Source: Geodermatophilaceae bacterium (GTDB taxonomy: Bacteria > Actinomycetota > Actinomycetes > Mycobacteriales > Geodermatophilaceae). Taken from it: a stretch of DNA of 32,149 bases. The notes under the pieces were generated by a model. The model was not told where the DNA came from, ran no database searches, and worked only from the letters and a program-made list of their open reading frames with translations. Location: the NCBI GenBank assembly GCA_013812145.1, contig JACCTY010000065.1, forward strand, positions 1 to 32,149. Reading direction: 5' to 3'. The translations under genes and the position numbers were made by a program. Positions 21,557 through 31,941 of this stretch are shown in pieces. Position 1 is the first letter of the stretch. The number at the start of each line of letters is the position of its first letter.

Positions 21557-23824
21557 ATGCTCGGTGCGGCGGGCCGAACGCCGACAACGGAACGGGCGGT
21601 CCCCCAGGTGAAGCCCTTTGGACGTCATTCCGGCGTGGTCCTCGCCGTCGTTTCCGCCGCGTTGCCCGCGCTCTGGTTCGGGGGCGTCGCAACCGGCGAC
21701 GACGGTCCGCGGACCGGAGCAACAGAGGCGGACGCGATCCACGCCGCGCCGCCGGCCGGCTTCGAGCTGAACGTCGGGCAGACCGATCCCCGAGTGCGCT
21801 TCTCGTCGGCGGGCAAGGGCTTCCGCCTGTTCCTCACCAACCAGGAGGCGGTGTTCGCGCTGGCGCAGCCCGGCTCTCCGACGCAGGGTGGGCAGGTGCT
21901 GAGGATGCGCTTCGGCGGTGCCGCAACGCCCGCCGTACAGGGGATGCAGGAGCTGCCCGGGCGGGCGAACCGGCTCGTCGGCGCGGACCCGACGCAGTGG
22001 CGGACCGGTATCCCCCGTTTTTCCCGCGTTCAGTACGCCGACGTGCACCCCGGAGTGGACCTGGTGTTTCGGGACGAGGCCGGGCGGCTCGAATACGACT
22101 TCATGCTGGCCCCTGGCGCCGATCCCGCCCAGATCCGTCTCGGGTTCCAGGGCGCGGCCGGTCTCGCGGTGGATGACCGCGGAGACCTCAGGGTGGCGCT
22201 GCCCGGCGGAGGCGAACTTCGGCAGCTGGCTCCGGTCGCCTACCAGGGCGCGGGGCAGACGCGGCGACCGGTCAGCTCTCAGTACAGACTTCTCGGCGGT
22301 GACCGGGTCGGGATCGAGGTCGGACAGCACGATCCGGCCTTGCCGCTGGTCATCGACCCGGTCTTGAGCTACTCGAGCTTCCTGGGCGGCGGCGACTACG
22401 ACTCGGCGTACGGGATCGCCGTGGACGCCGACGGCAACACCTATGTCAGCGGACTGACCGCCTCATACGACTTCCCGGGTGCGAGCACGGTCGCCGGCAT
22501 CGACGCTTTCGTGACCAAGGTGAGCCCGGACGGGTCTCAGATCGTGTACTCGACCACGCTCGGCGGCAGCGCGGACGAGCGCGCGAACGGCCTGGCCCTG
22601 GACGCGCTCGGCAACGCCTACCTGACCGGCCGCACAGAGTCGCCGGACTTCCCGACGACCGGCCGCGCCTACGACCGCACCTGCGGAACCGACGGGGCCT
22701 GCAACCCGGACGGGCTCGGCCCGCACGCGGACGCCTTTGTGACGAAGTTGAATGCCAGTGGTTCGGCTCTGGTGTACTCGACCTTCCTCGGAGGATCGGG
22801 CTATGACAACGGCAACCCGAACCGGTTCTTCGGAGACGGGGCGGGCGACATTGCCGTGGACGGGGCCGGGAACGCCTATCTGACGGGCTCGACGCAGTCG
22901 GCCAACTTTCCGGTGACTGCGAACGCGTTCCAGCCCTCGAACGGTGGGGGAATCTGCACGCCGGGGACCCCTCTGTGCCAGGACGCGTTCGTGACGACGC
23001 TCAACGCCGCCGGGACGAGGCTGCTCTACTCGACGTACCTCGGTGGGAGCGACATCGACGAGGGGTTCGGAATCGCCCTCGACAGCTCCCGCGCCGTCTA
23101 TGTCACCGGCAGGGCGGTCTCGGGCAACTTCCCGGTCACTCCCGGCGCGGTTCGACCCCGCAGCAGGGGAGGTGGCGACGGCTTCGTGACCAAGTTCCGA
23201 GCGAATGGGACCGGACTTGCGTACTCGACGTATCTGGGCGGCAACGGCACCGATACCGCCTCGGCGATCGCCGTGCGCGGGCGAGAGGCGTATGTGACGG
23301 GGTATACGTCGTCGTTCGACTTCCCCACCACCCCCGGTGTGTTCCAGCCTGCCAAATCGGGTGACTTCGACGCGTTCGTGACTCGGTTGACCGCTGCGGG
23401 CTCGCGGTTCGTGTACTCGTCGTACCTCGGTGGACTCACGGACGAGCTGTCCGACGGCGGGATCGCGGTGGATGCCACCGGGCGGGCCTATGTGACGGGC
23501 ACCACGGAGTCCGGAGAGTTCCCGCAACGCCGGCCCCTCGACGGCTGCACGAGGACCTTGGGGATGTTCGTCACCGTCGTCCAGGCCGCGGGCTCCGGTT
23601 TGGACTTCTCCACCTGCATCGACGGCGGGCTCAACGACTACGGGACCGACATCGCGGTGGACGCCGCGGGTGCCGCCCACGTGACGGGGCACTCGGCGTC
23701 CTCGGGGTCGTTCTCGACGCAACGGTTTCCCACGACAGCGGGCGCGTTCCAGCCCGGTTTCGAGGGTGGGGCGTTGGACGCCGTAGTGGTCAGGATCGAG
23801 GGGCCGCCGCTCACCTCGCCGTAG
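21557..23824 (+). CDS. Secreted SBBP-repeat (beta-propeller) protein
   Basis: A 755-residue protein of the SBBP/DUF7948 group. A signal sequence lies at about 26-46 (VVLAVVSAALPALWFGG). It is followed by the family N-terminal domain with FELNVGQTDPRVRFSSAGKG (about 69-88) and the stretch around SRVQYADVHPGVDLVF. From about 271 to 750 there are seven repeats of about 60 residues with the pattern YSTYLGG-D-IAVD-GNAYVTG-T-S-FP-T--AF, ending in DAFVTKL, compatible with a seven-bladed propeller. Four Cys in repeats 2 and 3 lie in insertions. GTG 21608 is an alternative start that would place the signal peptide at the very N-terminus. It probably acts outside the cell; the ligand is unknown. Confidence 0.85.
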   Translation: MLGAAGRTPTTERAVPQVKPFGRHSGVVLAVVSAALPALWFGGVATGDDGPRTGATEADAIHAAPPAGFELNVGQTDPRVRFSSAGKGFRLFLTNQEAVFALAQPGSPTQGGQVLRMRFGGAATPAVQGMQELPGRANRLVGADPTQWRTGIPRFSRVQYADVHPGVDLVFRDEAGRLEYDFMLAPGADPAQIRLGFQGAAGLAVDDRGDLRVALPGGGELRQLAPVAYQGAGQTRRPVSSQYRLLGGDRVGIEVGQHDPALPLVIDPVLSYSSFLGGGDYDSAYGIAVDADGNTYVSGLTASYDFPGASTVAGIDAFVTKVSPDGSQIVYSTTLGGSADERANGLALDALGNAYLTGRTESPDFPTTGRAYDRTCGTDGACNPDGLGPHADAFVTKLNASGSALVYSTFLGGSGYDNGNPNRFFGDGAGDIAVDGAGNAYLTGSTQSANFPVTANAFQPSNGGGICTPGTPLCQDAFVTTLNAAGTRLLYSTYLGGSDIDEGFGIALDSSRAVYVTGRAVSGNFPVTPGAVRPRSRGGGDGFVTKFRANGTGLAYSTYLGGNGTDTASAIAVRGREAYVTGYTSSFDFPTTPGVFQPAKSGDFDAFVTRLTAAGSRFVYSSYLGGLTDELSDGGIAVDATGRAYVTGTTESGEFPQRRPLDGCTRTLGMFVTVVQAAGSGLDFSTCIDGGLNDYGTDIAVDAAGAAHVTGHSASSGSFSTQRFPTTAGAFQPGFEGGALDAVVVRIEGPPLTSP

Positions 23825-25934: not shown

Positions 25935-27055
25935 AGCCTGCGGCTGTCGTCTGCTTGGTAGCCCGCCGCGAGATCGCAGCGAAGCTACGGGACAAGGGCT
26001 TTCTGCTGTCCACCGCGTTCATTCTGGTGGCTGTCCTCGCCTCTGCACTGCTGCCGGTCCTGTTGACCGATGATTCACCGACGTACGACGTCGGTGTGGT
26101 GGGCGTCGACGCGGAGCTGGAGGCAGCGGTGCAGGCCCAAGCGGAGGCTGCCGGCGCCGCTGTCGAATCGGAGGAGATCGAAGCGGCGATCGACGGTGAG
26201 CAGGTCGTGGTGGACAGCGCGCTTGACTCGATGCTCGAACGAATCCTCAATGCGGCGAGCGCCGCGGTGGCTGCTGAGCAGCGGCTGGTCGAGGTGGGCA
26301 TCGACCCGGCCGAGGTAGCCCAGGCGCTGTCCGTCCCGCCGCTGGAGTTGGTCCGCCTGGACGCCGACGCCGAGCGCAACGCCCAGCGGCAGGTGATCGC
26401 GTTCCTCGGCGTCGCCGTGCTCTACGGCCTGCTGATCTTGATGGGCCAGTACGTCGCCATGGGGGTCGTGGAGGAGAAGTCCAGCCGGGTGGTCGAACTG
26501 TTGTTGTCCACGATCAAGCCGTGGCAGCTGCTAGCGGGCAAGGTGATCGGCCTGGGCCTGCTGGGCCTGGCGCAGCTGCTGGTCGTCTGCGTGGCCGGTC
26601 TGAGTGCGGCCATCGCGTTCGATGTCGTCGCCGTTCCTGGCGACGCGATCGGGACCATGGCGCAGGTGATCGGCTGGTTCGTGCTCGGCTACGCCTTTTA
26701 CGCTGCGGTCTTCGCCGCCGGGGCGGCGCTGGTGTCGCGCCAGGAGGACCTGCAGAGCGTCCTGCTGCCCATGATCACCCTGCTCGTCGCCGCATTCTTC
26801 GTCGCGATCACCGCTGCGCAGAATCCCGACGGACTGCTGGCCCGGATCACCTCCTTCGTTCCGGCGCTGTCACCGATGGTCATGCCGGTGCGCTCGGCGG
26901 CCGGGAACGTCGACTGGTGGGAACTCGTGGTCGCCGTCGGGCTCATGCTCGCCGCGATCGCAGCGGTGATCCGCCTCGGGGGCCGGATCTACGCGGGTGC
27001 GCTGCTCCGAATGGGTGGCAAGGTCAAGGTGAAGGACGCGCTGGCCGGCAACTGA
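25931..27055 (+). CDS. ABC-2 type permease (NatB-like)
   Basis: A 374-residue membrane protein. The N-terminus LVARREIAAKLRDKGFLLSTAF leads into helix 1 (about 27-45). An exported loop of about 120 residues with an Ala/Glu-rich coiled section (ELEAAVQAQAEAAGAAVES) follows. Five to six helices span about 157-350 and include the ABC-2 hallmark MGVVEEKSSRVVELLLSTIKP, which couples to the ATPase. The layout matches YhaP/NatB permeases. The start overlaps the TGA of the ATPase gene by 4 bases. It converges with the glycosyltransferase gene, 4 bases apart. The reading frame is intact, unlike its partner's. Confidence 0.88.
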   Translation: MKPAAVVCLVARREIAAKLRDKGFLLSTAFILVAVLASALLPVLLTDDSPTYDVGVVGVDAELEAAVQAQAEAAGAAVESEEIEAAIDGEQVVVDSALDSMLERILNAASAAVAAEQRLVEVGIDPAEVAQALSVPPLELVRLDADAERNAQRQVIAFLGVAVLYGLLILMGQYVAMGVVEEKSSRVVELLLSTIKPWQLLAGKVIGLGLLGLAQLLVVCVAGLSAAIAFDVVAVPGDAIGTMAQVIGWFVLGYAFYAAVFAAGAALVSRQEDLQSVLLPMITLLVAAFFVAITAAQNPDGLLARITSFVPALSPMVMPVRSAAGNVDWWELVVAVGLMLAAIAAVIRLGGRIYAGALLRMGGKVKVKDALAGN

Positions 27056-27059
27056 GGCA

Positions 27060-27749
27060 TCACAGCTGCGCGGCGGGCAACGCGGACAGGAATCGACTCA
27101 GCCCACCGGGTGCACGGCCCAGTCGACGGCCGCTTGTCATGACGGGGACGTCGTCGGCCCAGGCTATCCGCCGGCCGACGGCGGTCAGGGCGGCGATCAG
27201 CGCGACGTCTTCGTGCGTGGTCAGGGCGGTGAAACCACCGGCCGCGACATAGGCATCGGCGCGGAACCCGAGGTTCGCGCCGTGGACGTGACCGTGGCCC
27301 CAGTGTTGGCGATATCCGCGCCGGTAGGCGTGCTGCGAGTCCTCGCGGTACGACGTCCAGTCGTCGATCGTGACGGTGCCCGCCACGGCGTCGTACCCGG
27401 CTCGGGCGTACCGCAGCTGTTGCCTAAGCCACGTCGGGCCCACGGCGCTGTCCGCGTCGGTCGTTGCCAGCCAGAGCCCGCGTACGCCGTACCGCCGGAG
27501 CAGCAGAGCACACCCGGCGGCGCGGGCCGCACCCACATTGGCCTCGTCGATCCGCAGGATCTGGGTGGACTGACCCAGCGCGCCCGCGGCCGCGAGAACT
27601 TCATCGCTGTCGTCGGTGCAGCCGTCGAGTACGAGAACGACGTGGACGGGGAGCCCGGCAACCGCGACCGCCACCCGAACGGCGGACAGGCAGCGCGCGA
27701 GCAGCTCCGCCTCGTCACGCACCGGTATCACCACACCGGCCGCCCGCAC
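27060..27749 (-). CDS. Glycosyltransferase family 2
   Basis: A 229-residue GT-A-fold transferase. VVIPVRDEAELL (6-17) starts the nucleotide-binding strand, LDGCTDDSDEVL (41-52) follows, and the metal-binding TDADS has its D-x-D at 98-100. HGANLGFRADAYVAAGGF is the acceptor-side motif, and HEDVALIAAL holds the probable catalytic Asp. There is no membrane anchor, so it should act in the cytoplasm on a nucleotide sugar. It is the last gene of a four-gene minus-strand operon, starting 2 bases after the methyltransferase stop. Donor and acceptor are unknown; the neighbours suggest that the product is an amino-sugar conjugate. Confidence 0.88.
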   Translation of the reverse strand: MRAAGVVIPVRDEAELLARCLSAVRVAVAVAGLPVHVVLVLDGCTDDSDEVLAAAGALGQSTQILRIDEANVGAARAAGCALLLRRYGVRGLWLATTDADSAVGPTWLRQQLRYARAGYDAVAGTVTIDDWTSYREDSQHAYRRGYRQHWGHGHVHGANLGFRADAYVAAGGFTALTTHEDVALIAALTAVGRRIAWADDVPVMTSGRRLGRAPGGLSRFLSALPAAQL

Positions 27750-27751
27750 CG

Positions 27752-28369
27752 CTAAACCAGCCCTTCGACCGCGGCCACCGACTTGGACTCCGGCGGCACC
27801 TTTTGAAACGTCTCCAGTACGACGTCCTCGTCGCGGTACCTGGCCAGCCGCGACAGGCCCGCGCCGGATTCGATGACCGTGTGAACCTCGTCACCGGTCA
27901 TGAGGTACTCCCGGACGGGATGCCGCCAGTGCACCGCAAGCAGCGTTCCGCCCGGCTCCAGCGCCTGCTGCGCCCCCATCATGGCCTCGCGCAACAGTGC
28001 GCCGTCGAGGTAGTAGCAGACCTCGCTGAGGACGATCAGGTCGAACCGCTGGTCCGGCCAAGGATCACCGAGCGCCCACCGTCGCAGCGAGACGTTGCGG
28101 TGTCCGGCGAGCCGGGTCGCCACCTCCTCCAGTGCCGCACTGGAGACGTCCGTCGCGACGATGCTGTCGCACCGGCCGGCGAGCGCCTCGGTGACGATGC
28201 CCAAGGAGCAGCCCGGCTCGAAGGCGGCGGCGTACCGGCGTCGCGGCAGCATGGCCATCGCCAGCGCCAGCTTTCGCTCCTCGTACCACCGGGTGCGGAA
28301 TCCCCACGGATCGCGAGCGCTGTCGTACATGGCGTCGAAGAAGCTGTCCGGCAGCCGCGCGCCACTCAT
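27752..28369 (-). CDS. NodS-like SAM-dependent methyltransferase
   Basis: A 205-residue class I methyltransferase. FDAMYDSARDPWGFRTRWYE (11-30) and FEPGCSLGIVTEAL (50-63, the SAM-binding Gly-rich loop) are typical of the NodS group, followed by Asp74 at the end of strand 2 and LIVLSEVCYYLD for motif IV. NodS of rhizobia N-methylates the deacetylated amino sugar of Nod factors. The start is ATG 28367-28369, which overlaps the TGA of the PIG-L gene (ATGA); a reading of 82 more codons upstream lies inside that gene in another frame. Pairing with a sugar deacetylase fits N-methylation of a freed amine, but this is inferred. Confidence 0.87.
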   Translation of the reverse strand: MSGARLPDSFFDAMYDSARDPWGFRTRWYEERKLALAMAMLPRRRYAAAFEPGCSLGIVTEALAGRCDSIVATDVSSAALEEVATRLAGHRNVSLRRWALGDPWPDQRFDLIVLSEVCYYLDGALLREAMMGAQQALEPGGTLLAVHWRHPVREYLMTGDEVHTVIESGAGLSRLARYRDEDVVLETFQKVPPESKSVAAVEGLV

Positions 28370-29115
28370 TCGAAGACCACCTCCGTGCGCCGAGAGAGCC
28401 GGTCGAGCATCGCGGGGGTCAGAACGGCCGCATCCTCGGGCGCCTCCGACAGCGGCCGGATCTGGCTGGCAAAGCAGCCGATGGCTGCGAGTTTCGCTGC
28501 GTGTGTCTCGTCGTCCAACTCGATCGCTCGGGCACGGGACCAGGGAACCCGCGGGTCGGCCGGCAGCGCCCAGTGCCAGGTCCAGATCGGGAACGTCAGC
28601 AGGCGTACGCCGCACCGCTGGGACACCGAACGCGCCACCCTGCCCACTGCTTCATGGTCGGGGTGGCCGTCACCGTCCCAGGTGGACAGACACCAGGTGC
28701 TTGTCGATACGTCTGCCAGCAGGTGGGCGACGACCGCCTCGATGGCGGGCTCTGCTGCGGCCACTGCGCCGTCACCGATACCCAACCGGTGGACCGTGGC
28801 ATCGACGAGCCCGAGGGCCCTGAGCGCACTGGCGGACTCCGCCCGGCGGAGGGCGGCCAGCCGCCCGGGTGTGACGGTCGATGACGCCGGGTGCGAGGCG
28901 TCTCCGTCGGTGACCGCGATCACCTCTACAGCGGCGCCGCGCAGGCTCAGCCGCCGCAGCAGACCGCCTACCCCGAGAATCTCGTCGTCGGGATGCGGGG
29001 CCAACAGGACTACCCGGTCGCATCCGCTGAGATCCAGCGGCGGGAACCTGTGCAAGCCCGGCCACGACTGCCAATCCGTCTCCGGCGTTCCGACACCGGC
29101 GATCGTGGTCACCAT
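28366..29115 (-). CDS. PIG-L family deacetylase
   Basis: A 249-residue zinc hydrolase of the PIG-L/LmbE/MshB group. The metal-binding motif is APHPDDE (39-45), and HPDHE (151-155) supplies the third ligand His. Family members remove N-acetyl groups from GlcNAc-type sugars, as in GlcNAc-PI, mycothiol or bacillithiol synthesis. The context is unlike that of mshB, since no mycothiol genes adjoin. It overlaps the acyl-CoA-dehydrogenase-like gene by 7 bases and the methyltransferase by 4. Fused PIG-L/methyltransferase proteins exist in other bacteria, which supports joint action. The likely product is a free amine for the methyltransferase. Confidence 0.88.
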   Translation of the reverse strand: MVTTIAGVGTPETDWQSWPGLHRFPPLDLSGCDRVVLLAPHPDDEILGVGGLLRRLSLRGAAVEVIAVTDGDASHPASSTVTPGRLAALRRAESASALRALGLVDATVHRLGIGDGAVAAAEPAIEAVVAHLLADVSTSTWCLSTWDGDGHPDHEAVGRVARSVSQRCGVRLLTFPIWTWHWALPADPRVPWSRARAIELDDETHAAKLAAIGCFASQIRPLSEAPEDAAVLTPAMLDRLSRRTEVVFE

Positions 29116-30074
29116 GACGGCGACGCGTTCTCGACCAACAGCGTGCCCAGCTCGGCCAGATGCCGTTCGGCGTGACTCTGTCGCAGGTAGACGGTCAGGT
29201 CCGCGACCCGCCGCGCGTGGGCGGCATCCGAGCCGAGCGGGCCCGCACCGCTGGCCCGGCCGACCCTGGTGAGGACGTCGTCGCAGGTCGCCTCGACGAC
29301 CGCCCGAACGCGCATCGCTCGGATTCGGGCCTCGCCGCGGCTGTCCAGCGGATCGGCGTCCACCGCACGAGCCGCCTCAGCCAGCGCGACGCCGGCGGCG
29401 TGCAGTGCGGCGTCGACAGCTCCGAGGTGCGCCAGGGCGTGCGGTCCGGCCCGGCCGGCCCGGGCCTGCTTCAACAAGGTGTCCGCGACGCCGCAGGCCC
29501 CGCCGTACCAGCAGGCGGCGACACCGATCGCTCCGTGCCAGAAGCCGGCCCGATTCAGGTATTGGCCGGGTGCCCCGACGGGCTCGGCGGGGGCGGCGTC
29601 GAAGCGGATGGCGCCGCTGTCGCTGCCGGCCATTCCCACCGCCGGCCAGGTGTCTTCGATCGGCTCGGTGTGGGCAGGGTCCATTTCGGCGGCGAACAGA
29701 GCCCGGTCGGCACCGATCCGCGCCGTCACCAGCCCGTGCGTGCAGGAATGCGCCCCGCTGCACCAGGGCTTGGTTCCGGTCAGCACCCAGCCGCCGTCGC
29801 GCTCCTCGGCGTGGACCACGGGTGTCGGTGGCTCCGCCGCCCAGACACCCCAACGTGATCCGGCCGGCGGCGGCGGACCGCCGAGCTCAGCCAGGATCGC
29901 CACCGCGTCGGCGTGGCCCTCGGCAAGTCGGGCGAGGGACAGATCCTGCCGGGCGATGCCAGCCAGTCCCCACCAGCGTTTGTCGGTCTCCCCCGAACCC
30001 GGCAGCGGGAGGTTCAGGGCGCCGCTACCGACCAACTCCACGAAGGAGGCACCGACCCGATTCACCTCGGACAC
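29109..30074 (-). CDS. Acyl-CoA-dehydrogenase-fold flavoenzyme, short form
   Basis: A 321-residue protein, shorter than typical acyl-CoA dehydrogenases (about 380). The middle beta-domain is recognisable in GGWVLTGTKPWCSGA (about 107-121), and the C-terminal helical bundle in VADTLLKQARAGRAGPHAL and AHARRVADLTVYLRQSHAERHLAELG. I cannot see the usual catalytic Glu motif. The C-terminal RQ-H-AERHL-LG pattern is closer to flavin monooxygenase relatives (DszC, amino-sugar N-oxygenases) than to fatty-acid enzymes. The start is GTG 30072-30074 with GGGGAG four bases upstream; the frame is open further but is preceded by the promoter. It is the first gene of the four-gene operon. Confidence 0.75.
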   Translation of the reverse strand: MSEVNRVGASFVELVGSGALNLPLPGSGETDKRWWGLAGIARQDLSLARLAEGHADAVAILAELGGPPPPAGSRWGVWAAEPPTPVVHAEERDGGWVLTGTKPWCSGAHSCTHGLVTARIGADRALFAAEMDPAHTEPIEDTWPAVGMAGSDSGAIRFDAAPAEPVGAPGQYLNRAGFWHGAIGVAACWYGGACGVADTLLKQARAGRAGPHALAHLGAVDAALHAAGVALAEAARAVDADPLDSRGEARIRAMRVRAVVEATCDDVLTRVGRASGAGPLGSDAAHARRVADLTVYLRQSHAERHLAELGTLLVENASPSW

Positions 30075-30111
30075 GTGGCTCCCCGCACCATGACTCGACT
30101 CGTTGAAGTAC

Positions 30112-30140
30112 AGCCTAGGTCGTAGCCGATCCCGGCCAAA
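30112..30140 (-). promoter_or_regulatory. Promoter of the ACAD/PIG-L/methyltransferase/GT2 operon
   Basis: The minus strand has TTTGGC (30135-30140), a 17-base spacer and TAGGCT (30112-30117). Transcription would start near 30105, giving a leader of about 30 bases that holds the GGGGAG ribosome site before GTG 30074. Confidence 0.5.
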
Positions 30141-30153
30141 GTTCGGCCGGATC
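30128..30153 (-). terminator. Hairpin upstream of the operon, possible terminator
   Basis: GATCCCGGCC (30128-30137) pairs with GGCCGGATC (30145-30153) with one bulged C. It lies just past the end of a minus-strand gene relic and overlaps the -35 of the operon promoter. It may have ended transcription of the lost gene, or it could be regulatory. Confidence 0.4.
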
Positions 30154-30160
30154 GCGGGGT

Positions 30161-30292
30161 TCAGCTGACCAGTCCTAGATCCAGGAGCATCGCGTCTAGC
30201 AGGGTGTCGATCGCGGGCCATGGCACCTCGGGTTTGCTGACGACGTGGTTCTGCGCGTAGCGGTGACGCCCCGTTCGAGGGATTGCCCGCAG
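30161..30292 (-). pseudogene. C-terminal relic of an unrecognised gene
   Basis: A minus-strand frame ends at TGA (30161-30163) with a plausible protein tail: RYAQNHVVSKPEVPWPAID followed by TLLDAMLLDLGLVS. Codon third positions are GC-rich from about 30262 leftward, but not further upstream, and a stop in frame at 30293-30295 closes it. No start or ribosome site is present. I do not recognise the family. It lies head to head with another truncated gene, so one deletion may have removed both 5' ends. Confidence 0.4.
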
Positions 30293-30295
30293 CTA

Positions 30296-30560
30296 GCCAC
30301 ATTCTCGGCGCTGTCCTGGACGGGATACTGCGCAACATCGAAGTCGTCGAGACGATCCCCGGCGACGACACAGCAGTGCTCATGTGCAGCGCGCAGGTTG
30401 CGGCGCACCAGGGCCGGGCCGAGGGACTTCTGGTCCTCCGCCCGAATGCCAGCGGTCGCTTCGCACAGCTGACCGTGTTCCTGCGGCCGCTTGCTGCCTG
30501 CAGGCACTCGCCGACGAAATGGGCCGGCCGGATGCGTCGCGGCAGGATGGCGGAAGGTGA
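30296..30560 (+). pseudogene. NTF2/SnoaL-like protein relic, truncated and frameshifted
   Basis: A plus-strand frame reads HILGAVLDGILRNIEVVET, then TAVLMCSAQV and AEGLLVLRPNASGRFAQLTV, ending FLRPLAA, which resembles the C-terminal half of SnoaL/NTF2-like proteins (typical end LTVFLRPL). After about 30495 the sensible frame shifts to LQALADEMGRPDASRQDGGR, ending at TGA 30558-30560. The N-terminal half of the usual ~120 residues is missing. With a truncated start and a shifted end, it is not expected to make a working protein. Confidence 0.55.
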
Positions 30561-30653
30561 CGGCATCCGCAGGTGGATCCTCAGCCCACACTCAGTCGTC
30601 GCGGTTGCTTCGTGCCGGCTGGTGGCCGCTTGGTCGCATCGTTGATCCGACTC

Positions 30654-30959
30654 TCACGGCATGAATAGGTCGAAGGCGTCGCTGATGGCGAGGGTGAGCG
30701 CCGGTTCCTGGTCGTCGAAGAAGAGGCCGAGCGTGTCGCCGACGGCGTTCGTGCGCACGGTGATGAGGTTGTCGCAGCTGACGACGCTGTCATGGTCCAG
30801 GCCGTTGCGGGGCCCGACGGGAACCTCGCTGGTGATGCCTCGGATCGTGCTGGTGATGGGGGCGACGGTGATCCAGGTCAGCAGGTGCAGCCTGGACGGC
30901 CGGGTCAGGATCAGGGCTGGTCGGCGTTTGTCCAGCTGGACCGCGGCGATGGTCCGCAT
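30654..30959 (-). CDS. MazF/PemK-type toxin, short form
   Basis: A 101-residue protein with family marks IAAVQLDKRRPALILTR (4-20), ITVAPITSTIRGITSEV (29-45) and GLDHDSVVSCDNLITV (about 53-68). MazF toxins are ribosome-independent endoribonucleases that cut mRNA or tRNA at short sites. The N-terminal RGDVWWV strand found in most MazF proteins is absent, so it starts directly at the second strand. The ATG 30957-30959 is 10 bases downstream of the antitoxin stop; a longer reading overlaps the antitoxin gene in another frame. It is part of a minus-strand antitoxin-toxin pair. Confidence 0.8.
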   Translation of the reverse strand: MRTIAAVQLDKRRPALILTRPSRLHLLTWITVAPITSTIRGITSEVPVGPRNGLDHDSVVSCDNLITVRTNAVGDTLGLFFDDQEPALTLAISDAFDLFMP

Positions 30960-30969
30960 CGGTGCGGTA

Positions 30970-31209
30970 TCAGTCCAGCGACGGGTGCGGTAGGTCGAGC
31001 AGACCGTCCAGGTCGGGGTAGACGGGCTCCCCGCGTCTGGCGATCTCGACGAGTGCGGCTTCTTCAGCTCGGTAGCGCTGGTCACGAAGCAGGCGGGCGA
31101 TTCCCTGGCGGACCGCCTCGGAGCGATTGGCGGCGCGCCCTTCCACCACCTCCGCGTCCAGAACCGCCAGTTCGCGGTCGTCGAGCCGGATGGCAATCTG
31201 CGTGGTCAT
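30970..31209 (-). CDS. Ribbon-helix-helix antitoxin (MazE-like partner)
   Basis: A 79-residue protein. TQIAIRLDDRELAVLDAEV and RSEAVRQGIARLLRDQR give the ribbon and two helices of an RHH DNA-binding dimer. The C-terminal part (EEAALVEIARRGEPVYPDLDG) is acidic and likely wraps the toxin. The start ATG 31207-31209 follows TACACT with 6 bases, so it is probably leaderless, and inverted repeats upstream are likely autoregulatory sites. It precedes the MazF-type toxin gene, as expected for a type II pair. Confidence 0.82.
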   Translation of the reverse strand: MTTQIAIRLDDRELAVLDAEVVEGRAANRSEAVRQGIARLLRDQRYRAEEAALVEIARRGEPVYPDLDGLLDLPHPSLD

Positions 31210-31215
31210 GGTGGG

Positions 31216-31262
31216 AGTGTAGGAAACGGTTGTCAACCAATCGGTATGCGCCTGGTTGGCAA
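31216..31262 (-). promoter_or_regulatory. Promoter and operator repeats of the MazF-type pair
   Basis: TACACT (31216-31221, minus strand) lies 6 bases before the antitoxin ATG. GGTTGTCAACC (31228-31238) is an 11-base dyad. TTGTCAACC (31230-31238) also pairs 8 of 9 with GGTTGGCAA (31254-31262). Such nested repeats suit cooperative binding of an RHH antitoxin. Confidence 0.5.
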
Positions 31263-31381
31263 GGCGCGGGCCCCAGCTGCACGTCGCCCTACTGAAGTAG
31301 TGCTGATCGCGCCAGAGCGGGCCTCCACAGGGTTGACCCCGGACCGGGCCTGGAGGTCGGCTGCGCGACGAGCAGTTGCGC

Positions 31382-31395
31382 GCCACAATTGTGGC
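31382..31395. promoter_or_regulatory. 14-base perfect palindrome, likely Phd operator
   Basis: GCCACAATTGTGGC is fully self-complementary. It ends 1 base before the ATG of the Phd-type antitoxin and overlaps the expected -10 region (ACAATT, 6 bases before ATG). Autorepression by the antitoxin is the usual mode. Confidence 0.6.
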
Positions 31396-31396
31396 C

Positions 31397-31663
31397 ATGA
31401 GCATTGAGTCGCTTCGTCAGGTCCGCGACCACTTCAGCGACGTCGTCGACCGGGTGGAGCGTGAGCATGAGCGCGTCACCGTGACCCGCAACGGCCGTGC
31501 GGCCGCGGTCCTCATCAGCCCAGACGACCTCGCCCAGCTCGAGGAGACCCTCGACGTCCTCGGAGACCCCGACGCACTGGCGGACATCCGCGAGGCCGAT
31601 GCGGCCTACGCGCGCGGAGATGTGGTGCGCGGTGTCGCCGCGGTTCGCGCTCTGCACCCGTGA
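31397..31663 (+). CDS. Phd/YefM-family antitoxin
   Basis: An 88-residue protein. The N-terminal Phd fold is clear: MSIESLRQVRDHFSDVVDRV, then ERVTVTRNGRAAAVLISPDDLAQLEETL. The C-terminal ~30 residues are acidic and Ala-rich and would bind the toxin. The ATG at 31397 is chosen because the family start (short helix then LRQVR) begins there and the operator palindrome lies directly upstream; an upstream alternative at 31376 would run through the palindrome. The stop overlaps the toxin GTG by 4 bases. Confidence 0.85.
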   Translation: MSIESLRQVRDHFSDVVDRVEREHERVTVTRNGRAAAVLISPDDLAQLEETLDVLGDPDALADIREADAAYARGDVVRGVAAVRALHP

Positions 31664-31941
31664 CCGAAGCGGAGCCTTACGAACTCGTCCTCACCCCGCC
31701 GGCGGTTCGTGCCCTGCAGGCCAAACTGCCTGAGACCGTGGCCGCAGCCGTGATCGAGTTCCTGACTGGCGCGCTTATCGAGAACCCCCGCCGCGTCGGG
31801 AAGCCCTTGCGTGGAGATCTCGGCGGCATCCACTCCGCACGTCGCGGGACGTACCGAGTGCTCTACCGCATCAACGACGAACGCCATGAGGTCGTCGTCG
31901 TACGCATCGATCATCGCCAGGGCGTCTACAGGCCGAACTGA
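31660..31941 (+). CDS. RelE/ParE-family toxin
   Basis: A 93-residue protein with the RelE fold: YELVLTPPAVRALQAKLPE (7-25), a helical pair, NPRRVGKPLRGDLGGIHSARRG (the basic loop) and TYRVLYRINDERHEVVVVRIDHRQGVYR, with the conserved YRVLY and terminal Arg/His/Tyr residues. RelE toxins cut mRNA in the ribosomal A site; ParE toxins hit gyrase. The R-G-x-Y-R-V-x-Y pattern and basic residues favour RelE. The GTG start overlaps the antitoxin stop (GTGA), so the two are translationally coupled. Confidence 0.86.
   Translation: MTEAEPYELVLTPPAVRALQAKLPETVAAAVIEFLTGALIENPRRVGKPLRGDLGGIHSARRGTYRVLYRINDERHEVVVVRIDHRQGVYRPN

Follow-up and report, generated by a model that had tools for sequence, protein, structure and literature searches.

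A four-gene set conserved in four bacterial phyla that may encode a pathway to a modified amino-sugar glycoside

Contig JACCTY010000065.1 of the Geodermatophilaceae bacterium assembly GCA_013812145.1 was analyzed at its full length of 32,149 nucleotides, here called the window. Between positions 30074 and 27060, it carries four minus-strand genes that encode, in an overlapping or abutting series, a protein with the acyl-CoA dehydrogenase (ACAD) fold, a PIG-L deacetylase, a NodS-like methyltransferase and a family 2 glycosyltransferase (GT2). These four genes are one functional unit, which is present in Actinomycetota, Pseudomonadota, Bacteroidota and Deinococcota. By analogy with enzymes of known chemistry, it is fairly probable that they encode a single cytosolic pathway to a modified amino-sugar glycoside. 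The best evidence in this analysis for the chemistry of the pathway is a replacement found in Rubrobacter and its kin, in which an unrelated deacetylase of the carbohydrate esterase family 4 (CE4) takes the place of PIG-L. This widespread assembly line is apparently unstudied. No functional study of the set was found in the literature searched, and the sole mention lists LmbE, a glycosyl transferase and an S-adenosylmethionine (SAM) methyltransferase, with no function, as predicted neighborhood partners of the photoreceptor gene BlsA in Acinetobacter baumannii (PMC9948694).

Results

Loci were collected through their ACAD or PIG-L gene and scored with four profile hidden Markov models. The methyltransferase gene lay at most 4.5 kb from the ACAD gene in 94 of the 96 loci, GT2 was found in 86 and PIG-L in 83. 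The complete set was present in 79 loci, in at least eight gene orders. The gene order is shuffled while the membership is kept, a pattern characteristic of selected linkage, and the conservation in four phyla together with the shuffled orders ruled out an accidental grouping of unrelated genes. The original prediction had treated the genes as one unit and proposed a search for the same neighborhood in relatives. This search gave a strongly positive result. Scanning named genomes with the PIG-L protein identified 17 close actinomycete relatives (Rhodococcus/Rhodococcoides, Actinoplanes/Paractinoplanes, Virgisporangium, Antrihabitans, Dietzia, Actinomadura and others), and the four genes were adjacent in all 17, arranged as ACAD-PIGL-MT-GT2 in ten and GT2-ACAD-PIGL-MT in seven (MT, methyltransferase). 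The overlapping gene junctions were seen again in named relatives. Across 76 loci, protein distances are correlated between the four families (r 0.79-0.90), in part owing to the common species phylogeny.

The ACAD-like profile, used as a marker, was present in each of the four genomes sampled from the window's genus, in 24 of 96 genomes of its family, in 31 of 296 Actinomycetota genomes (about one in ten) and in 33 of 398 Pseudomonadota genomes (about one in twelve), counts that are possibly low because scoring was limited to the best candidates per genome. It was also found in Deinococcota and in Bacteroidota, where the carrier is Pricia antarctica. The set is plasmid-borne in Acinetobacter, Cupriavidus, Comamonas, Legionella, Kitasatospora, Sulfitobacter, Paracoccus, Komagataeibacter, Sphingomonas, Rubrobacter and Deinococcus. 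Decaying copies may exist as well (loci L126 and L124): one same-order genome has a TGA within the ACAD frame and another retains only ACAD and PIG-L.

All 17 Rubrobacter-type loci (Actinomycetota; 16 of family f19 and one of f10) lack PIG-L and have a CE4 deacetylase gene before the ACAD gene. Unless a contig end intervenes, their order is CE4, ACAD, methyltransferase, flavin adenine dinucleotide (FAD) reductase and GT2. A plasmid of Rubrobacter indicoceani is an example, with these genes annotated as polysaccharide deacetylase, acyl-CoA dehydrogenase, SAM-dependent methyltransferase, FAD-dependent oxidoreductase and glycosyltransferase. The CE4 protein matched PF01522 with 82 bits (cut-off 23.1) and retains the TFDDGP, HxxxH, RPPWG and LMHDG motifs. 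Its top curated match was NodB (108 bits, E 3.6e-31, under the cut-off of 240), and the Rubrobacter methyltransferase scored 89 bits against NodS (cut-off 300), higher than the 57 bits of the window protein. The CE4 profile had no match in the remaining 89 loci, and no PIG-L was found anywhere in the genome in 4 of 11 Rubrobacter-type genomes. The 17 loci share ancestry, so the swap represents one or a few events. The chemistry common to the PIG-L and CE4 folds is the removal of an acetyl group from an acetamido sugar, and the use of two unrelated sugar N-deacetylase folds in one slot supports de-N-acetylation followed by N-methylation. The FAD enzyme encoded between the methyltransferase and GT2 genes (L231:8523-9725 and L141:9564-10745) is of the ferredoxin-NAD reductase type and may supply the ACAD-fold enzyme with electrons.

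The window PIG-L protein, one of five in its genome, matched PF02585 with 87.1 bits (cut-off 28.2). Its zinc motifs HPDDE (H41 to E45) and HPDH (D153, H154) are intact and their columns are invariant. The closest relatives of solved structure are diacetylchitobiose deacetylases and BshB, the latter being also the top curated match. An hhalign comparison of PIG-L with the ACAD-fold protein served as a negative control only. In Pseudomonas-type loci, a second, divergent PIG-L gene lies directly 3′ of GT2 (L180:5433-6152 and L181:12510-13229).

The methyltransferase belongs to the NodS fold family (PF05401, 54.1 bits, cut-off 24). NodS was also its top NCBIfam match, at 57 bits below the equivalog level (cut-off 300), as well as the top curated match for the Rubrobacter and Pseudomonas methyltransferases. 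In a profile comparison with the PDB, the nearest structures were 4isc (E 6e-64) and NodS (3ofj, E 2e-27), followed by small-molecule N-methyltransferases and GenN. The same gene matched part of the PADLOC model mad2 of the MADS defense system (E 6e-16), a match that probably reflects only the common methyltransferase domain; it was the sole PADLOC match, and a defense system was rejected.

The GT2 protein matched PF00535 with 54.4 bits (cut-off 23.3). Its AlphaFold2 model (predicted local distance difference test score, pLDDT, 89) consists of a GT-A domain only, with the motifs D98-A-D100 and E180-D181, and the TDAD, HGAN and ED columns are conserved. No QxxRW motif was found after the ED motif in the GT2 alignment. 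Structural comparison listed GT-A relatives at Z about 20-22, including polysaccharide and wall-teichoic-acid enzymes, without thereby excluding families outside the listing. The model and the TDAD and ED motifs indicate that the enzyme is inverting and probably non-processive. The original prediction rightly named a glycosyltransferase and noted that GT2 enzymes build sugar chains; since the protein is soluble and short, the addition of a single sugar is more likely than a NodC-like chain building.

The ACAD-fold protein, to which no role had been assigned, is probably a group D flavin monooxygenase-like enzyme and not an acyl-CoA dehydrogenase. Its match to Acyl-CoA_dh_M (PF02770) was barely over the cut-off (33.7 versus 33.3 bits), and its top NCBIfam matches were flavin monooxygenases or SfnB, well under their cut-offs. 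The PDB profile matches included DszC, MsuC and the sugar nitrososynthases KijD3, ORF36 and DnmZ, together with ACADs. The AlphaFold2 model (pLDDT 91) had DszC as its top-ranked Foldseek match, and VIA-align superposed it on DszC/TdsC at Z about 31 (root-mean-square deviation 2.6, 312-314 residues aligned). Alignment with acyl-CoA dehydrogenases of the same genome showed that the catalytic EGT position is QSH(A), with R-Q-S-H at the Glu column, and that FITN is replaced by WCSG, as in DszC. The catalytic Glu is missing from every row of a 17-row alignment, and the helix position of the alternative catalytic Glu, assigned by motif register only, is the invariant G181. In a profile alignment with DszC, S106 (the Ser of CSG) and W143 match S163 and W205, which are active-site residues of DszC. 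The protein thus combines the ACAD fold and the CSG/SG flavin-site motif with the loss of the catalytic glutamate, a loss on account of which a literal acyl-CoA dehydrogenase function was rejected. In Deinococcus sp. AJ005, a plasmid-borne fusion protein (L232:5594-7954) joins the ACAD-like part to an N-terminal half, about 400 amino acids long, that has no Pfam match and looks like a glycoside hydrolase; an annotated family 1 glycosylhydrolase gene adjoins it.

Genes related to stress were found near the set in several genera: otsA/otsB, KatE catalase, treY/glgX, GlgE, DUF892 and photolyase. The Comamonas arrangement is otsA-ACAD-PIG-L-MT-GT2-otsB, in which the end of otsA overlaps the start of the ACAD gene by 4 bases and otsB lies 4 bases past GT2. 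Legionella has otsB and a glycoside hydrolase family 65 (GH65) enzyme directly upstream. On an Acinetobacter plasmid, the set is accompanied by catalase, DUF421 and otsA/otsB, and in Cupriavidus by catalase, GlgE and a PA2169-family protein; the neighbors in Pseudomonas-type loci are treY-like and glgX-like genes. Catalase is also nearby in Sulfitobacter and Sphingomonas, and species of the genus to which the window belongs have photolyase close to the set. As a rough estimate, at a density of one or two catalase genes per 5 Mb, well under 1% of 15-kb stretches would include one.

In the window, the four genes and the junctions of the original prediction were confirmed exactly: a 7-base overlap between the ACAD and PIG-L genes, a 4-base overlap between the PIG-L and methyltransferase genes and a 2-base gap before GT2. 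The single promoter-like sequence that it placed ahead of the operon was not recovered. Neither a sigma-70 promoter-like nor a terminator-like site turned up in a consensus scan of 26900-30700, which is weak evidence because the host is a high-GC actinomycete. An ATP-binding cassette (ABC) exporter permease gene converges on the operon, 4 bases from the end of GT2, and two toxin-antitoxin pairs are located directly upstream of it. The positions are collected in Table 1.

Table 1. Positions of the operon genes and of other features in the window
Feature	Positions	Strand	Remarks
ACAD-fold flavoprotein	29109..30074	-	321 aa, GTG start, GGGGAG immediately 5′
PIG-L (LmbE-type) zinc-dependent N-deacetylase	28366..29115	-	249 aa, ATG start
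NodS-like SAM methyltransferase	27752..28369	-	205 aa, ATG start
Soluble GT2 glycosyltransferase, GT-A fold	27060..27749	-	229 aa, GTG start
PemK/MazF-like and ParD-like ribbon-helix-helix gene	within 30654-31941	-	toxin-antitoxin pair
Phd/YefM and ParE	within 30654-31941	+	toxin-antitoxin pair
Protein with DUF7948 and SBBP beta-propeller repeats	21557-23824		755 aa

Discussion

In the proposed pathway, GT2 would use a nucleotide sugar as its donor and attach a single N-acetylamino sugar, most likely N-acetylglucosamine (GlcNAc), to a small acceptor. PIG-L, or the NodB-type CE4 enzyme in Rubrobacter and its kin, would strip the acetyl group, and the NodS-like enzyme would then methylate the freed amine. 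The ACAD-fold flavoprotein may act last and oxidize the product. N-oxygenation of the amine or methylamine is the most natural guess for this step, the nearest functional analogues being group D flavin monooxygenases. Group D flavin enzymes have the ACAD fold and include known N-hydroxylations (PMC6165268), and amino sugars are listed among the substrates of flavin N-hydroxylating enzymes (PMC7347517). Judging from the neighboring genes only, the product probably serves the survival of stress such as desiccation, oxidation or radiation. A bolder version, which we advance tentatively and regard as unlikely as a whole, is that desiccation- and radiation-tolerant bacteria of several phyla make a new family of amino-sugar glycosides, N-methylated and N-oxygenated (as hydroxylamine or nitrone), which protect them from stress through their redox activity. 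The lack of an assigned product was part of the original prediction and is supported here. Its description of the unit as self-contained was too strong, because the set is often found inside stress clusters and Rubrobacter adds a reductase gene.

Several observations weigh against a common pathway of this kind. The family matches of the methyltransferase, GT2, CE4 and ACAD-like proteins are all far under the equivalog cut-offs, so that their specificity comes from analogy. Ordinary acyl-CoA dehydrogenases reached Z about 30 in VIA-align, a tie with DszC/TdsC, and the fold alone therefore cannot decide the chemistry of the ACAD-fold protein, for which the sequence is the better guide. Most versions of the operon encode no flavin reductase, a linked one being found only in Rubrobacter-type loci. 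To these are added the share of species phylogeny in the distance correlations, the occurrence of stress neighbors in a minority of loci and the surroundings of the four genes in the window, which have no stress neighbors there and are flanked by ABC exporter and toxin-antitoxin genes.

The same evidence can be read in other ways. The set could decorate a surface polysaccharide or lipid-linked glycan, with GT2 placing the amino sugar on an envelope precursor that the other enzymes tailor. The polysaccharide and wall-teichoic-acid enzymes among the structural neighbors of GT2 are compatible with this, as are the extra GT4/GT2 genes or the UDP-galactopyranose mutase near alphaproteobacterial, Bacteroidota and Deinococcus loci. 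However, these loci belong to distant branches, to which the extra glycosyltransferases are limited, all four proteins have the look of soluble enzymes, and genes for a polymerase, flippase, export or acyltransferase do not recur beside the core set; we consider this reading unlikely. Trehalose or its phosphate could instead be the acceptor of GT2, giving a trehalose-derived amino-sugar protectant. The tight insertion between otsA and otsB in Comamonas speaks for it, together with the otsB and GH65 genes of Legionella and the otsA/otsB, treY/glgX or GlgE genes near the Acinetobacter, Pseudomonas and Cupriavidus loci. However, a trehalose gene adjoins the set neither in the window nor in the Rubrobacter type, nor in most other loci, and a common stress regulation accounts for the co-location without a common substrate, which makes a trehalose acceptor rather improbable.

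The ACAD-fold protein could also be a genuine dehydrogenase whose substrate is an acyl chain or CoA ester, in which case the product would be an acylated amino sugar, nearer to a Nod factor or glycolipid. Its structural similarity to several acyl-CoA dehydrogenases (Z near 30) and the marginal PF02770 match would fit. The catalytic Glu, however, is absent throughout the alignment and genes for an acyltransferase, acyl carrier or CoA ligase do not recur near the set, so that we give this possibility little weight. The preferred reading is still a soluble pathway to a small amino-sugar glycoside with a monooxygenase-like flavoprotein.

If this reading is true, Nod-factor-like amino-sugar chemistry exists far beyond symbiosis, and a common, overlooked metabolite of environmental bacteria, whose genes frequently lie on plasmids and within stress islands, remains to be discovered. 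The exchange of PIG-L for a NodB-type enzyme fixes one step and opens the proposed pathway to tests with four soluble enzymes.

The set was compared with known systems. KijD3, ORF36/RubN8, DnmZ and DszC/MsuC share with the ACAD-fold protein the fold, the conserved Ser and Trp of the flavin region and the lack of the ACAD glutamate, and some known members of this group oxidize amino groups of sugars. Unlike these enzymes, the protein has 321 instead of about 400 amino acids, identity is about 15-23% and its activity is predicted. Mycothiol (MshA/MshB) and bacillithiol (BshA/BshB) synthesis also use a glycosyltransferase followed by a PIG-L deacetylase to make a small cytosolic GlcNAc conjugate. 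However, the set has a GT2 and not a GT4 enzyme, as well as an N-methyltransferase and a flavoprotein. Synthesis of either thiol was rejected: no cysteine ligase lies beside the set, and the BshB/MshB scores are far under the cut-offs. In aminoglycoside pathways, N-acetylparomamine is deacetylated by a PIG-L enzyme and GenN-type N-methylation occurs; GlcNAc transfer, PIG-L deacetylation and amine methylation thus take place on one sugar, as proposed for the set. Unlike them, the set is without cyclitol or other antibiotic genes, and its conservation in four phyla is untypical of an antibiotic cluster.

The closest parallel in logic is rhizobial nodC-nodB-nodS. Judged from the sequences, the four-gene set does not belong to the nod systems. 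It has no acyl chain genes, an added ACAD-fold oxidase and no tie to nodulation, and its GT2 is soluble and short, not a NodC-type processive membrane enzyme. No NodA or other acyltransferase gene was found among the genes beside the operon or in the annotated plasmid loci, no genome search being aimed at NodA. PIG-L takes the role of CE4 in the window and in most phyla, and the NodB and NodS scores are well under the equivalog cut-offs. The parallel to nodCBS drawn by the original prediction is nevertheless borne out as logic, since GT2 transfer, de-N-acetylation and NodS-type N-methylation would be the same three steps. The idea that PIG-L stands in NodB's place is strengthened by the 17 Rubrobacter-type loci, the only ones with CE4 in this role, where the deacetylase itself is of the NodB type.

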